Shown one piece after another: positions 3,663 through 35,609 of a stretch of DNA of 40,631 nt. The stretch covers positions 1 to 40,631 of IMG/VR virus record IMGVR_UViG_3300017772_000031. The stretch is one strand, 5' to 3'. Source of the stretch: a virus. Numbering within the stretch: position 1 is the first letter of the stretch; every line of letters begins with the position of its first letter. A program made the translations under genes and the position numbers. Below the pieces are notes generated by a model. That model saw only the letters and a program-made list of their open reading frames with translations. It did no database searches and was not told the origin of the DNA.

Positions 3663-3793
3663 TCGCTCTTGGTTGAGCCTCCCCCCTTGTCTCCGGTTGA
3701 TCCCCGGAAAACGGCAAGGGGGGGGGTAGAGAGCGCCCGAACCACCAAGAGCGAGAAGACAAGTCTCTCGCCGCACCCTGCCGTCTCACGGCA
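3663..3793 (+). other. nested stem-loop region upstream of the replication initiator
   Basis: This 208-base gap (3601-3808) has no gene but strong pairing. The outer arms TCGCTCTTGGT (3663-3673) and ACCAAGAGCGA (3744-3754) match perfectly. A middle C-rich arm at 3678-3691 pairs with the G-run arm at 3713-3726 over 14 base pairs, two of them G-T. TCCGG (3692-3696) pairs with CCGGA (3704-3708) around a 7-base loop. Two more hairpins follow: GCGAGA/TCTCGC (3751-3756 with 3766-3771), which competes with the outer arm, and TGCCGT-CTC-ACGGCA (3779-3793), ending just before the ribosome-binding site GGAGAG. No U-tract follows, so this is not a simple terminator. It could be a structured 5' leader, an antisense-controlled switch or a DNA replication element. 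Confidence 0.6.
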
Positions 3794-3808: not shown

Positions 3809-4765
3809 ATGAAGAGATACAACCGCGTGTCGAGGAACCTGTGGACTGACGGTGGGCTCATCAAGCTCGAGCCGATCAAGTTCTCCGTCCCATGCCTATA
3901 CCTCTACCTGATGACCTGCGACAGACCCACCCGCATCGCAGGTCTGTTGCGGGGAGCGGGGACCATCTGCGACGACACCGGATGGTCACCGGATAGGGTA
4001 TCCGATGGGGTATCCGCACTGCATAAGGAGGGGCTACTCACAGTGAGTTCGAGACCCTCCTACATCCTCGTCCATGAGGCTCTCGCGTTCGACCTACCCG
4101 ACCCAGGGAAGGCGACTGTCGGAGCACTCAGAGACCTCGACTCTCTGCCCGACTGCGAGCCTGTTCGACTCGCCAGGTCCATCATCGAGGACAGGGGACT
4201 GGATAGGGTATCCGATAGGGTATCCGATAGGGTATCGGTATCCCATGCGAAGCCAGGAACAGGAACAGGAACAGGAACAGATACCCCCAAGCCCCCTACG
4301 GGGGTGAGTCGGTCTGTTGATTCTGTCTGGACATCCTGGCGGTCTCATCACCCGACAGCCCGAAAGGCTCCGACAGCAGGCCAGCGAAGGACGATCACCT
4401 CGAGGCTCAAAGACTACAGCGAACAGGAGATCGCTCAATACTTCTTGTGGCTCAAGGAGTCTGACCATGAGCGAGCGAAATACTGTCGAGAGCATGGGCA
4501 TGACGGCTTCAGTTCTGTCATGCGCCCCAGCAACATCGACGAGCGGATGGACTGGGTCCACCAGTGGACAATCGAGGACAGCCCAGAGAACTCATATCCC
4601 ATGTGGCTCGAGCATGACGTGATGAGCAAAGTCCGTCGTGAGCGACTGGGCAGTGATGACCTGACGGATGACCTGCTGATGGCCCATCCGAGAGCATCTG
4701 AGACCACGCCGCTTCAGCGTGAACGGGTCATGGAGATGTGCCGAACACAGATGGGTTGGTCGTGA
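3809..4765 (+). CDS. replication initiator, O-like, with winged-helix N-terminus
   Basis: 318 residues. ATG at 3809 follows GGAGAG. The N-terminus (about 20-90) matches phage replication winged-helix domains: IKFSVPCLYLYLMT, a glycine-rich RIAGLLRGAG, then VSDGVSALHKEGLLTV. A low-complexity linker (DRVS repeats, then GTGTGTGT, about 130-160) is encoded by DNA repeats that look like origin iterons. The C-terminal region (VWTSWRSHHPTAR, RRTITSRLKDYSEQEIAQYFLWLKES, about 170-225) resembles the DNA-binding or helicase-recruiting part of such proteins. The DnaB-like gene follows immediately, as with lambda O/P and P22 18/12. It should bind the origin and load the helicase. Confidence 0.75.
   Translation: MKRYNRVSRNLWTDGGLIKLEPIKFSVPCLYLYLMTCDRPTRIAGLLRGAGTICDDTGWSPDRVSDGVSALHKEGLLTVSSRPSYILVHEALAFDLPDPGKATVGALRDLDSLPDCEPVRLARSIIEDRGLDRVSDRVSDRVSVSHAKPGTGTGTGTDTPKPPTGVSRSVDSVWTSWRSHHPTARKAPTAGQRRTITSRLKDYSEQEIAQYFLWLKESDHERAKYCREHGHDGFSSVMRPSNIDERMDWVHQWTIEDSPENSYPMWLEHDVMSKVRRERLGSDDLTDDLLMAHPRASETTPLQRERVMEMCRTQMGWS
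3991..4015 (+). repeat. iteron pair 1 inside the initiator gene
   Basis: GATAGGGTATCC at 3992-4003 is followed directly by GATGGGGTATCC at 4004-4015, a 12-base direct repeat with one mismatch. With the preceding G, the first copy reads GGATA-GGG-TATCC, a perfect dyad. Both repeat and dyad match the second cluster at 4201-4243. Confidence 0.7.
4201..4243 (+). repeat. iteron cluster 2, candidate replication origin
   Basis: Three tandem 12-base units occupy 4202-4213, 4214-4225 and 4226-4237 (GATAGGGTATCC twice, then GATAGGGTATCG), followed by a partial GGTATCCC. Each unit has GGATA/TATCC dyad symmetry. They encode the DRVS repeats of the initiator linker. Origins nested in the initiator gene are known for lambdoid O genes. 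Binding by the encoded protein is inferred. Confidence 0.65.
4255..4304 (+). repeat. AGGAAC x4 tract and C5/G5 hairpin beside the iterons
   Basis: Four perfect AGGAAC hexamers fill 4255-4278 (encoding Gly-Thr repeats). They are followed by CCCCC-TAC-GGGGG at 4292-4304, a tight hairpin. The tract is purine-rich on the plus strand, so it could serve as the unwinding or strand-bias element next to the iterons. Confidence 0.6.
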
Positions 4766-6066
4766 GCCTCCCAGACCGAGTGCCCCACGACATTGGTGCG
4801 GAGAGGGCTCTACTCGGAGCCGTTCTCCTCTCCCCTGGTGTGTTCCACCTGGCTCAGGGAGAGGGATTCACGAAGGAGCACTTCTTCAAGGAGGCAAGCC
4901 GACTCATCTGGGATGTTTTCGCGTACTGCGACCGAGCAGGGTCTCTCGATGTGACCCTCGTTGCGGGAAGGTTGGAGGAGCTGGGCAAACTCGAACGCAT
5001 TGGTGGGGTCGTTTGGCTGCTCGACCTGTCTGCGTCGTGCCCCAGCATCCACAACGCAAAGCGATACGTCGAGACCATCATGCGTCATGCCCGGTCGAGA
5101 GCCCTGCTTCTCGCTGGGGAGCAGATGCGACACGCCATCCTGTCTGGTGAGAACCCAGACGACGCTGCAGCAATCGTGAACAGGACGTTCGCTGAGGGGC
5201 AGGTTGACCCAGCCTCTGCAGAGTGGGCGTCCGACACCATCGACAGGCTTAGGCCACAGTTCAGTGCTCGACAGAAGCCGGATAGGTTCTTGCCCCTGGA
5301 GAGCAGGGTTCTGAGAGGGATGGTCGGAGGGATCGCGAAAGGACACATCCTCCTTGTCGTTGGCCTACCCGGCATGGGCAAAAGCGTATTCATGGATGGA
5401 CTGTGCGTTGACCTCGCTGTCGAGCATGGCATCTCTGGATGTCTGTTCAGCCTCGAGATGAGCCTCGACGCGGTCACCGAGAGGAGAATCAGCAGGCTCG
5501 CGTCCGTCAACTACGGAGCGGTGCAGGACCGACAGGTCACTGACGAGGAGCTATTTCACGTAGACCAGGCGATGAACCGTCTGGACACCGCCCCCCTGAT
5601 GACCGACGAAAAGCTCTATACGGTCCACCAACTGTGCGCTCGCGCTCGAGCAGGCCAGAGAGAGCATGAGTGGCAATGGATAGGCATCGACCATCTGCAT
5701 GAGTTTCGGAAGACGGACCCGAACATGAGTCCGCAGGCGCACATGCAGGAGGTTGCTGACGCCCTGCATGAGTTGTGCAAGACCACGAAGCTTGCAGTCA
5801 TTCTCGGAGCGCAGATGAACTCGGAGGCTCGTAACCGAAAAGACCCCCGACCTCGTCTCGGAGACGTGCGGTACGGCAAGCCGGTGGAAGAGAAGGCTGC
5901 AGTCATGCTGGGCATCTACAGGGACCACGTCATCAACCCCTCGCCTGAGCGTAGGTTTGAGGTGGACATCAACGCTGCGAAGAGCCGGTTTGGAACCGGT
6001 GGAAGATGCATCATGCGCTGGGAGGGTCACTTCCAGCGCGTAGTCGATACGCCCATAGGGTTTTAA
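4738..6066 (+). CDS. dnaB: DnaB-like replicative DNA helicase
   Basis: Up to 442 residues; hexameric 5'-3' helicase expected at the fork. The N-terminal domain has the DnaB pattern HDIGAERALLGAVLLSP (17-33). Walker A is GLPGMGKS at 209-216, followed by CLFSLEMS (235-242) and a Walker B-like WIGIDHLHEF. A sensor segment LAVILGAQMNSEARNRKD and GDVRYGKPVEEKAAVML follow. Two GTG starts are possible, 4738 and 4762. The second gives a GTGA overlap with the initiator; neither has a strong ribosome-binding site, which suggests translational coupling. Its place right after the initiator supports a paired replisome role using host polymerase. Confidence 0.93.
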   Translation: MPNTDGLVVSLPDRVPHDIGAERALLGAVLLSPGVFHLAQGEGFTKEHFFKEASRLIWDVFAYCDRAGSLDVTLVAGRLEELGKLERIGGVVWLLDLSASCPSIHNAKRYVETIMRHARSRALLLAGEQMRHAILSGENPDDAAAIVNRTFAEGQVDPASAEWASDTIDRLRPQFSARQKPDRFLPLESRVLRGMVGGIAKGHILLVVGLPGMGKSVFMDGLCVDLAVEHGISGCLFSLEMSLDAVTERRISRLASVNYGAVQDRQVTDEELFHVDQAMNRLDTAPLMTDEKLYTVHQLCARARAGQREHEWQWIGIDHLHEFRKTDPNMSPQAHMQEVADALHELCKTTKLAVILGAQMNSEARNRKDPRPRLGDVRYGKPVEEKAAVMLGIYRDHVINPSPERRFEVDINAAKSRFGTGGRCIMRWEGHFQRVVDTPIGF

Positions 6067-22936: not shown

Positions 22937-23935
22937 CTAGAGCCTTCCCATTCCTGGCCGCATCGACGAGTACAGGTCGCGGGACATCTGCTGACCGCTA
23001 GTAAGCTCTCCAGAAGATAGGCCCATGCCAGCCGCTGCTTGAGAGTCCGCAAGGAACTGCTCGTACTCTGCTTCAGCCTGTAGCTCTTGAGCAAGCCTGC
23101 GAACGCGCTCTGCTTCGTCTTCTCTGGCTATTGCGTTTTGTAGGCTTCTGCCCATTAGCCCCATCATTTCATCGGGCGTGTTCCTTCTTGCATACGGTCG
23201 GACGACACCTTCATTTATCACCATCATCGGCCTGCGCGGTGTCTCTCTTTGGGCCGCGCTCATTAGACCCTCCATCTGCCTCTGCTGTCTAAACCTACGC
23301 AAGGTCTCTTCGTCGGCTTCCATCTGCCTCTGCTGTCTAAACCGACTCAGTGTGTTTTCGTCGGCTTCCATCTGCCTTTGTTGGCGAAAGTTCCGAAGAG
23401 TGTCTTCGTCCGCTTCCATTCTTCTCTGCTGGCGAAAGTTCCGAAGAGTGTCTTCGTCGGCAGACAGTCGGTCCATTTTTTGGTTTTGGATCTGCTGACG
23501 AAAGCGGTTCAGAGCCTGCTCGTCGTTTCCAGCATTGAGGGCCGTAAACCGAAGACTGTTGTATGGGTCCATCTGCCTTGTCAGCTCATTGGGCGCATTC
23601 GATGTTGGCTGGGCCTGTGGTAAGGCGCGCCGAGCCACAGCCCTGCGAACAGGGGCTGGACGAACAGTCTCTTTGGCGAACTGGTCGAAGAACCCACCGG
23701 AAGACGGAGCCTCTTGAGCTACTCGAGCAAGAGCGGCGTTTCGCGCCTCTGACTGGTCTTGCCCTGAGCCCCAGATAGAAGCCTGAGTCCCGCCAGGACG
23801 CAACTGCCCTAGCGTTCCCTCTACCGTCCTCTGAGCGATAGCAGACGCTGCCGGTGCGCTGAGCCCCTGCTCGAGACCCTGTGACATGTAACGCTCGTAC
23901 AGCGCCTTTGTTTCGGGGTTGCTGTAATCAGCCAT
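22937..23935 (-). CDS. internal virion protein with 16-residue tandem repeats
   Basis: 332 residues from ATG 23935 (MADYSNPETKALYERYMSQG); the longer frame is rejected because it would run deep into the gene upstream. The middle carries four tandem 16-residue units of the form QQRQMEADEDTLRNFR, a charged coiled coil encoded by 48-base repeats. Flanking regions are low complexity (RPAPVRRAVARRALPQ). It overlaps the previous gene by eight bases. A helical virion rod or ejection component is likely. Confidence 0.65.
   Translation of the reverse strand: MADYSNPETKALYERYMSQGLEQGLSAPAASAIAQRTVEGTLGQLRPGGTQASIWGSGQDQSEARNAALARVAQEAPSSGGFFDQFAKETVRPAPVRRAVARRALPQAQPTSNAPNELTRQMDPYNSLRFTALNAGNDEQALNRFRQQIQNQKMDRLSADEDTLRNFRQQRRMEADEDTLRNFRQQRQMEADENTLSRFRQQRQMEADEETLRRFRQQRQMEGLMSAAQRETPRRPMMVINEGVVRPYARRNTPDEMMGLMGRSLQNAIAREDEAERVRRLAQELQAEAEYEQFLADSQAAAGMGLSSGELTSGQQMSRDLYSSMRPGMGRL
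23271..23462 (-). repeat. four tandem 48-base repeats
   Basis: Units begin at 23271, 23319, 23367 and 23415 on the plus strand, each opening with TCCAT and sharing TTCGTC(G/C)G near the end. They encode the QQRQMEADEDTLRNFR repeats. Divergence between units shows they are not a recent artefact. Confidence 0.85.
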
Positions 23936-33635: not shown

Positions 33636-35609
33636 ATGGCGCGTATCAAACTAAGCGACCACATGATCGACAAGTTTCTCGGTGATATGAGGTCTTCTCA
33701 GCATCGCATTGACGAGGAATGGCGACCACGGTGGAACAAAGTCGAGGCTGCATACCAGGGCAAATCGCCAGAAGAGATTCATGGAGTTATGGGCGATAGA
33801 AACGCCGTCAACTTCAACTTCATTCTCTCTACAGCCAACACGATCATCCCTAGCGTCTTGCCGACAGACCCCTACATCACGTTCAAGTCGCGTGACCCAA
33901 AAGACAGAGACGCCGCTTTCGTTGCCGAAGCCTCTGTGAACTACGCATACAAAACAGGTCGAGCAAACTCAGCTACTCGCAACGTTCTTCTCGACTGCGA
34001 AAAGTTCTCGATGGGTATCGGCAAGGTTGTCTACAACCCCGCAGGGAATGTGACCCCTGTTATCCACTACGACCAAGATGCAGAGATCGAACTCGACCAC
34101 GACGAAGACGCTTTGGATGGGGCTATTGGTTCAGAGATTGCCTACGAAATGGAGTCTGAAGGGTTCAACATGCTTATCGAGGGAGACGGGATTGATATCC
34201 CAACCCTCGAGCGTGTGGCTCCGTGGAACTTCTTGTTCCCTGAGGGGCATGACGACATCAACAAGTGTCCGTGGGTAGCAGAACGACTTCTGGTCAAGCT
34301 CGATGACCTCCGCATGTACGAAGGCTTTACTGTAAAGCCACACGTTATGGCGAAAGAGAATCTATCTCTTCATATGCCAGGAGGAACTCTCGAAGCCGCC
34401 ATCATGCGACAGCCGGGTGCAGATATTGACCCAGGCTTTGTCGCTCTTTACGAGATTCACTACTGGGTGCGGCAGAAGAGAAAGCTTGTCCGAAGGATTC
34501 TCTGGATCCTCGACAACACCAACGCACAAGGTTTTGACCGCGTCGTCAGGCACATCGAAGACGACAGCGGCATGCGCGGCTATCCCTTTGTCATGCTTCG
34601 CACTGTCGTAAACCCCGGCAAGATGTGCGAGCCAGACATTGCCGACCTCGCCACAATCCAGCCAGTCGCAGACCGGCTTAACGCTGAACTTGCTGCTGTG
34701 CTTCGGCATCACAAGCAGGCCAGCAAGCAAAAGTATGTGGCCGCACCTGGCGCTCTCTCAGGTGACTCCCAGTTTGAAAAGCTACTTCGCTCTGAGCGAG
34801 ACCTATCTGCTGCCGAGCTTCCGTCTCAGTTCAACGACGTAAGGCAGGCTCTTCAACTTGTGCCCATTGCCCCGATGCCGCCAGACGTTCCGTTCATGCT
34901 GCAGACGCTGCAGCGACTCATGTACGAAATCGGAGGCGTCGATGTCTTCCAGCGCGGAGGAGTTGCCCGAAAGGGAACCACCGCAACAGAGGTCGCAGTC
35001 GCAAGTCAGTCCTTCCAGAACCGAGCGCAAATCCGAAAGCGTGCTGTCGAGCAGTTCATCGAAGATGTTGCTCGTCGTTACCTCGACTGCATGCGTCGAT
35101 ACTGGACACAGACAAACTGGATTCGAGGAGCTGGCACTGGAGACGATTCGTTTATCGAAGTCAGTTCAGAGCGCATGAGAGGCGCATTCGACATCACGGC
35201 AAGCGTGTCTGAGTTCGACCCGAACGAGCAGACAAATGAGTTGCAGGCGTTCAACGGATTGCTTCAGACGATTGCTGCCACCATTCAGACGATCATGCCC
35301 CTGGTACAGGCGCAGGTTCTTCCGAAGGACACAATCAACAACTTTGTACGGAAAGCGTTTGAGCTTTGGCGCCAGGACAGCCGAAGGCTCATTGGCCCGC
35401 TTTCATCTCTAGCCAACCCGATTGCATCGCAACAAAACATTGCAGCGCAGGGACCGGCTAACCCAGAAGAAGAGATGCCGTCTGCAGGGGAAGACGTACA
35501 AGCAGCGAGCATCAACGGACAAGGTTTTGGTGGGGGTTTTCAAGGGATGTCTGGGGGACTGGCGGGCACTGGGCCTAGACCGGGAGCCGGACAAATTGTG
35601 GAGGAATAG
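33636..35609 (+). CDS. portal protein
   Basis: 657 residues. ATG at 33636 follows AAGGGA. N-terminus RIDEEWRPRWNKVEAAYQG and NFNFILSTANTIIPSVLPTDPY, split, are typical of podovirus portals, as are DPSVARE-like regions (ERVAPWNFLFPEGHDDINKC) and the long C-terminal helical part (FQNRAQIRKRAVEQFIEDVA). It forms the 12-fold DNA channel at one vertex. It is on the opposite strand to capsid and tail genes, which is unusual. Confidence 0.88.
   Translation: MARIKLSDHMIDKFLGDMRSSQHRIDEEWRPRWNKVEAAYQGKSPEEIHGVMGDRNAVNFNFILSTANTIIPSVLPTDPYITFKSRDPKDRDAAFVAEASVNYAYKTGRANSATRNVLLDCEKFSMGIGKVVYNPAGNVTPVIHYDQDAEIELDHDEDALDGAIGSEIAYEMESEGFNMLIEGDGIDIPTLERVAPWNFLFPEGHDDINKCPWVAERLLVKLDDLRMYEGFTVKPHVMAKENLSLHMPGGTLEAAIMRQPGADIDPGFVALYEIHYWVRQKRKLVRRILWILDNTNAQGFDRVVRHIEDDSGMRGYPFVMLRTVVNPGKMCEPDIADLATIQPVADRLNAELAAVLRHHKQASKQKYVAAPGALSGDSQFEKLLRSERDLSAAELPSQFNDVRQALQLVPIAPMPPDVPFMLQTLQRLMYEIGGVDVFQRGGVARKGTTATEVAVASQSFQNRAQIRKRAVEQFIEDVARRYLDCMRRYWTQTNWIRGAGTGDDSFIEVSSERMRGAFDITASVSEFDPNEQTNELQAFNGLLQTIAATIQTIMPLVQAQVLPKDTINNFVRKAFELWRQDSRRLIGPLSSLANPIASQQNIAAQGPANPEEEMPSAGEDVQAASINGQGFGGGFQGMSGGLAGTGPRPGAGQIVEE

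Follow-up and report, generated by a model that had tools for sequence, protein, structure and literature searches.

We propose that a phage replication origin lies inside its own initiator gene in a 40,631-bp virus record (IMG/VR IMGVR_UViG_3300017772_000031, positions 1 to 40,631), called the window below. The gene probably carries a theta-type origin at which the initiator would bind iterons, an adjoining array of hexamers would be opened or engaged, and DnaB would be loaded. The reading of the repeats in this gene as an origin is well supported by comparison with related sequences.

Initiator gene, iterons and array of the window

The initiator gene is followed directly, on its 3' side, by a DnaB-type replicative helicase gene (Table 1), and the profile matches bear out the order of initiator then DnaB that had been read from the sequence earlier. 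Residues 1-122 of the initiator matched phrog_1701, 'DnaD-like helicase loader' (E 2.1e-9), which places the N-terminal domain in that family by sequence; the same annotation was matched by 30 of 34 aligned initiators. The O-like profile phrog_678 gave a weak match (E 0.03), and a Pfam search with the window initiator gave none. Protein P0001 as sole query had no relative among viral contigs and one match in phage records, at 27.6% identity; the first 20 kb of the record had no near DNA match among phages. A promoter and terminator scan of the window returned nothing useful. Just 5' of the initiator gene lie nested inverted repeats (3663-3754), with perfect 11-nt arms (3663-3673/3744-3754) and 12-nt arms (3678-3689/3715-3726). 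Elsewhere, the window holds a QueC-like gene (1459-2307; PF06508, E 4.2e-37), which suggests 7-deazaguanine-type DNA modification or queuosine metabolism, a tandem repeat of 48 bp in about 4 copies (82% match) within a minus-strand ORF (23271-23461), and a plus-strand portal gene (33636-35609) whose neighbours, head genes on one side and a terminase-like gene on the other, are on the minus strand, an unusual orientation flip.

Table 1. Features in and around the initiator gene of the window
Feature	Position	Strand	Remarks
Initiator gene	3809..4765	+	318 aa; N-terminal winged helix, then a linker of low confidence and a helical C-terminal part
Predicted recognition helix codons, residues 61-73	3989..4027	+	DSSP on AlphaFold model
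Iteron 1, cluster 1, GATAGGGTATCC	3992..4003	+	
Iteron 2, cluster 1, GATGGGGTATCC	4004..4015	+	one mismatch
Iteron 3, cluster 2, GATAGGGTATCC	4202..4213	+	
Iteron 4, cluster 2, GATAGGGTATCC	4214..4225	+	
Iteron 5, cluster 2, GATAGGGTATCG	4226..4237	+	last base differs
(AGGAAC)4 array	4255..4278	+	complement TnnTnnT; encodes Gly-Thr repeats
CCCCC-TAC-GGGGG inverted repeat, 3' of array	4292..4304		no stabler than shuffles
DnaB-type replicative helicase gene	4738..6066	+	PF03796 E 1.1e-37; PF00772 E 1.4e-16; phrog_19 E 3.6e-50

The five 12-mers in two clusters described in the earlier note are real by sequence scan, three of them being exact copies of GATAGGGTATCC. With up to two mismatches, the window contained six matches, five of them in the initiator gene, while dinucleotide shuffles contained a mean of 1.45 and none of 100 reached six. 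With at most one mismatch, the five 12-mers of the initiator gene were the sole matches in the record, and the reversed pattern had 0 matches across the whole record. Direct and dyad iterons are thus present inside the initiator gene, as in an internal origin of the lambda O type. Synonymous codons in the clusters were biased: Asp was GAT in 5/5 cases (14/93 elsewhere), Val was GTA in 6/6 (11/104 elsewhere; the sixth GTA lies directly 3' of cluster 2), and TCC was used in 4/5 (12/104 elsewhere).

We located the repeats on an AlphaFold model of the initiator (34 sequences; a monomer without DNA). Mean pLDDT was 69.9 and pTM 0.47 overall, with values of about 88-97 across residues 31-130 and mostly low confidence across residues 131-164. 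DSSP assigned helices at residues 50-57 and 61-73, forming a helix-turn-helix, and strands at 77-81 and 84-88, forming a wing. Cluster 1 corresponds to codons 62-69, within the second helix of this motif, and cluster 2 and the hexamer array fall in the low-confidence linker. The proposal that the repeats encode low-complexity linkers therefore holds for cluster 2 and the array but not for cluster 1, which encodes residues of the predicted recognition helix. Structure searches pointed to a winged helix and little beyond. Foldseek against the PDB gave no match at E ≤ 0.001, its top rows being regulators, with 4pt7_B, titled 'Structure of initiator', at E 0.51; the VIA structure rows showed winged helices of a generic kind, with Z up to 9.4; and the best row among predicted viral structures was 'Replisome organizer' (E 2.3e-6). 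A sequence search of solved structures found no credible relative.

The four AGGAAC hexamers reported to follow the repeats were also recovered; in this array, 9 of the 10 third positions are A. An AT-rich unwinding tract was not found beside the iterons, the AGGAAC array being 50% G+C by sequence; 1-kb windows around it were 59-60% G+C. The C5/G5 hairpin held only in part: the inverted repeat exists, but its folding was not significant against shuffles (z -0.54 on the plus strand, -0.29 on the minus strand). When the 45 nt 3' of the array were scored in relatives against mononucleotide shuffles, z fell below -2 in 53 of 145 cases, compared with 25 of 433 control windows, a higher hairpin potential there than in other parts of these genes and one that the window does not share.

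Array, iterons and helix codons in related initiators

Relatives were collected using N-terminal domains alone as queries, without conditioning on the array; subfamilies A2, A3, A5 (window-like) and A6 were searched for in viral contigs, and A4 in bacterial genomes. Two of 280 genes were excluded before clustering as truncated or short, and an 80% identity cut gave 162 non-redundant genes. An array was scored when the 6-bp-periodic self-match was at least 0.75 over 30 nt. The results showed a 6-bp array in 145 of the 162 genes and in 1 of 810 codon-shuffled versions; because subfamilies A2-A4 and A6 had been noticed through their arrays, this figure is a prevalence within those subfamilies and not among all phage initiators. 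The other 17 genes lay under the threshold, and lags of 5, 7 and 8 showed no periodicity in the 162 genes. After removal of 16 genes sharing exact DNA with loci found by the pattern itself, the array was present in 129 of 146. Comparison of sequences establishes the layout and its recurrence, and by this evidence the hexamer array recurs across these initiator subfamilies.

Among named phages, the array occurs in the initiators of Klebsiella ST13-OXA48phi12.4, Escherichia PhiR5_2 and CharmingMan, and Acinetobacter R3177, and Moorella MCACPph1 has a T-rich version. No comparable array was found in lambda O, P22 18, SfV, Burkholderia DC1, Iodobacter PLPE, Arthrobacter Abidatro or TP901-1, and Citrobacter phage Chris1 has a related initiator without the array. 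Actinobacillus pPE4 (18/24) and Gordonia Easley (17/24) were borderline on the 6-bp measure and lacked periodic A. Searches of open-access papers turned up no account of such arrays.

A scan for (AGGAAC)4 returned at least 120 stretches; the control unit (CAAGGA)4 occurred in 60 viral contigs, where most of the genes holding it were unrelated. Comparing these counts, one of them a lower bound, to conclude that AGGAAC is simply commoner than its reversed unit was judged unsafe, and position and frame were used instead. Among the matches listed, one homology cluster joined 78 EQ-frame and 11 GT-frame ORFs from (AGGAAC)4 loci, along with a single ORF on the opposite strand and 4 ORFs from the 60 (CAAGGA)4 loci. 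Of the first 129 genes, 103 contained (AGGAAC)4 with up to 4 mismatches; when the letters were rearranged into nine other units, each matched 0-2 genes, except for AAGAGC (42) and AAGCAG (20), both near-synonymous EQ arrays. The array is read in varied frames (EQEQ, GTGT, VTVT, KEKE). For example, the initiators of L071 (GT frame) and L075 (EQ frame) are 48% identical over 275 aa, and the DNA ...CGAAGCC-AGGAACAGGAAC... is nearly the same in L071 (TCGAAGCC) and L075 (CCGAAGCC), with the frames differing. With an iteron period of 11 bp, gain or loss of one iteron shifts the frame of the array, which, judging from these two sequences, would explain GT versus EQ.

Written in rotation, the units of the 145 arrays were AACAGG (69), AGCAGG (28), AACAAG (12), AAGAGC (10) and 21 others. 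Strict identity of the hexamer was rejected as the constant feature, as relatives use other units and third positions vary inside EQ arrays. Periodic A, defined as at least 90% A at one base in three, was found in 133 of 145 arrays and in 0.1% of 1873 control windows, and the complement of these arrays reads TnnTnnT. Three arrays (L460, L463, L466) had periodic T instead, that is, the pattern on the other strand, and 9 of 145 had neither at the 90% cut. Without the 16 genes mentioned above, 117 of 129 arrays were A-periodic.

In 112 arrays the periodic A fell at codon position 2; 19 arrays had it at position 3 and 2 at position 1. An A at position 2 could be explained by hydrophilic residues (Glu, Gln, Lys, Asp) alone, and inspection showed that four of the 21 other arrays (L394, L442, L448, L468) also have A at position 2, wholly or for the most part, and do not discriminate. 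The discriminating test used 22 genes, picked on protein, whose array encodes four-fold-degenerate residues. Their third bases in the array were A 150, T 23, C 11 and G 1 (185 in total), compared with A at 593 of 3009 elsewhere in these genes. By gene, 16 were all A, two all T and four mixed, and these gene counts are the safer numbers because array copies within one gene are not independent. Exclusion of the 16 genes left 18 four-fold genes, of which 12 were all A, two all T and four mixed. An earlier codon list of 15 genes had been picked on periodic A and was circular; the 22-gene set supersedes it. Synonymous bias in EQ-frame arrays was modest (GAA 54-76% in the array, 40-64% elsewhere), which would be expected if the constraint fell on one base in three only. 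Comparison shows a constraint on the array at the DNA level.

Iterons also accompany the array in relatives. In the 60 nt 5' of the array, A3 genes reached a self-match of 0.625 at lag 12, compared with 0.289 in mid-gene sequence, and A4 genes one of 0.501 at lag 11, compared with 0.282; a PFM from the pre-array analysis was partly circular, being fitted to AGGAAC. The iterons are lineage-specific: A4 genes have, for example, GAAGCCCCTTC, A3 genes a GGAAGGCTTTCG-like sequence, and the window GATAGGGTATCC. A tandem 12-mer scan found two loci, L001 and L002, each with a related gene in which a 12-mer array precedes AGGAAC repeats, read DRVSDRVS-GTGTGT, and the window-like relatives (L001/L429, L430, L431) retain iterons followed by the array. 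The earlier note had named relatives that keep the linker and lose the repeats as evidence against its reading; the opposite was seen, with lineage-specific repeats of period 11 or 12 and the 6-bp array both kept. Together with the biased synonymous codons of the window, this upholds its suggestion that the DNA rather than the protein is constrained. Two deeply diverged initiators (L139, L183) carry a GATAGGGTATCG-like iteron close to that of the window, followed by AAGGAC repeats. The initiator at L026:3939-5012 (minus strand) has many CAATCATTCCCC-type 12-bp iterons in its linker, encoding PQSFPQSLPQS repeats.

The best match to the linker iterons was sought elsewhere in each gene. It began at codons 55-69 in 3/3 A2, 47/56 A3 and 41/48 A4 genes, and the window had a match of 26 nt at codon 60. 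Mean scores were 14.0 (A2), 13.2 (A3) and 15.0 (A4), compared with 8.6 in a control window. The recognition helix of relatives thus also holds copies of their own lineage's iteron. Codon choice was nearly fixed there: in the 43 A4 genes with EGA..GL in the helix, Glu was GAA in 98% (42% for the same residue elsewhere), the two Gly codons were GGG in 98% and 84% (19%), Ala was GCT in 84% (16%) and Leu was CTT in 95% (11%); in 23 A3 genes, both helix Ala codons were GCC (100 and 100%, 43% elsewhere). Mean third-position G+C of these gene sets was 0.68-0.69, so the GGG, GCT and CTT favoured in A4 oppose the usual codons. By this comparison, a DNA-level constraint on the helix codons is shown as well.

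Proposed mechanism and alternative explanations

We infer that the protein binds the iterons and that the array is where the strands part and is read in single-stranded form. In the proposed sequence of events, the winged-helix N-terminal domain would bind the dyad iterons of about 12 bp in both clusters, and assembly on cluster 2, beside the array, would lead to opening or engagement of the 6-bp array. The initiator or a partner would then hold one exposed strand, and DnaB from the next gene would be loaded. The place of the array, corresponding to the AT-rich tract of lambda, and its TnnTnnT complement make strand-specific opening or helicase loading its likeliest role. Cluster 1, about 200 bp upstream, could serve looping, local concentration of the initiator or repression of the operon. 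Cumulative GC skew, which had been put forward as a check, peaked near 13 kb, where gene orientation flips, and not at 4.2 kb, and gave no support for the origin; the skew follows gene orientation, so an origin cannot be mapped from it in this window.

The array might instead be a mutational by-product, with repeated opening and priming at the origin causing frequent slippage, any hydrophilic dipeptide tract being tolerated and the iterons alone being functional. Such an explanation fits the different units among relatives (AGGAAC, AAGAGC, AGTAAC, AAGGAC and others) and copy numbers ranging from 4 to 17, but slippage leaves A at every third base unexplained across units and frames, as well as the 16 of 22 four-fold-degenerate arrays with A at every four-fold third position, and we consider it unlikely. 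The clusters might also be operators and not an origin, with the initiator repressing its operon or forming a roadblock by binding inside its gene, and with the array as a flexible linker that expands by slippage; this appears somewhat less probable again. The iterons are palindromic and operator-like, the winged helix of the DNA-binding domain is of a generic type that also lies near transcription regulators, and hexamer tracts are prone to slippage; (CAAGGA)4 tracts, too, occur in viral contigs, for the most part in unrelated genes. Against this stand the array in 145 of 162 genes, 133 of the 145 keeping the periodic A despite varied frames and units, and a gene order shared with lambda and P22, with the initiator followed by DnaB or DnaC.

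The cluster in the helix codons could also be a recombination junction or a recent conversion tract, iteron-like DNA having been kept during module swaps. These initiators are modular, with C-terminal parts common to phages that have different N-terminal domains. Yet the helix codons are near-fixed in the 43 A4 genes, which represent clusters below 80% identity and many genera, and outside the helix the codons of these genes show free variation; this explanation appears very unlikely.

If the origin reading is correct, origins of many uncharacterised phages and prophages could be found from sequence alone, the search signature being a winged-helix gene of 300 aa that has, midway along it, iterons and an array with periodic A at one base in three. 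The codons of the DNA-reading helix would be the helix's own binding site, tying a change of specificity to a change of site. It would also put to the test a helicase-loading code of the single-strand TnnT type, extended from bacterial oriC to phages.

Comparison with known origins

The layout had been said to mirror lambda O and P22. The iterons bound by lambda O lie midway along gene O, next to the AT-rich tract at which strand opening takes place (PMC7466680), and the array of the window group occupies the place of that tract. The resemblance stands for gene order and internal iterons: as with lambda O and P22 18, the iterons are within the initiator gene and the helicase function is encoded next. 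It does not extend to the repeats, since lambda and P22 have iterons spaced by about 20 bp and no 6-bp array, whereas the window group has iterons of 11/12 bp and, unlike both phages, an extra iteron cluster in the recognition-helix codons.

Iteron-plasmid initiators such as TrfA and RepE are winged-helix proteins; unlike the iteron plasmids, the window group has iterons within the codons of the DNA-reading helix. Plasmid initiators (RK2 TrfA, RepE) bind double-strand iterons and single-strand short repeats of the unwinding element (PMC10797057), and by this description the shared elements are an initiator, iterons and an adjoining short-repeat array. SPP1 gp38 binds direct repeats in gene 38 (oriL), likewise a direct-repeat origin inside the gene whose product binds there, and oriL has an AT-rich unwinding element (PMC6316719).

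The pattern of the bacterial DnaA-trio/DRE, with A at every third base, TnnT opposite and double-strand sites alongside, was found in the window. For the polarity, the side of the oriC trios on which the DnaA boxes lie was compared with the side of the array on which the iterons lie. The same polarity was not found, as the A-strand of the window runs 5' to 3' away from the iterons; with this polarity opposite to that of oriC, the relation is one of resemblance, not membership. In B. subtilis, DnaD requires a pair of TnnT motifs in the strand that faces the DnaA-trios, and the likeness lies in an array beside double-strand sites with NAN trinucleotides on one strand and TnnT repeats on the other (PMC10201434). 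Unlike oriC, the window system involves no DnaA, and its array is a 6-bp tandem repeat in coding sequence. We tentatively suggest, as a bolder reading with somewhat less than even chances, a two-part origin in which iterons lie over the initiator's own recognition-helix codons and a frame-independent TnnT/NAN array is the phage counterpart of the DnaA-trio/DRE, so that bacteria and phages might share a loading code.
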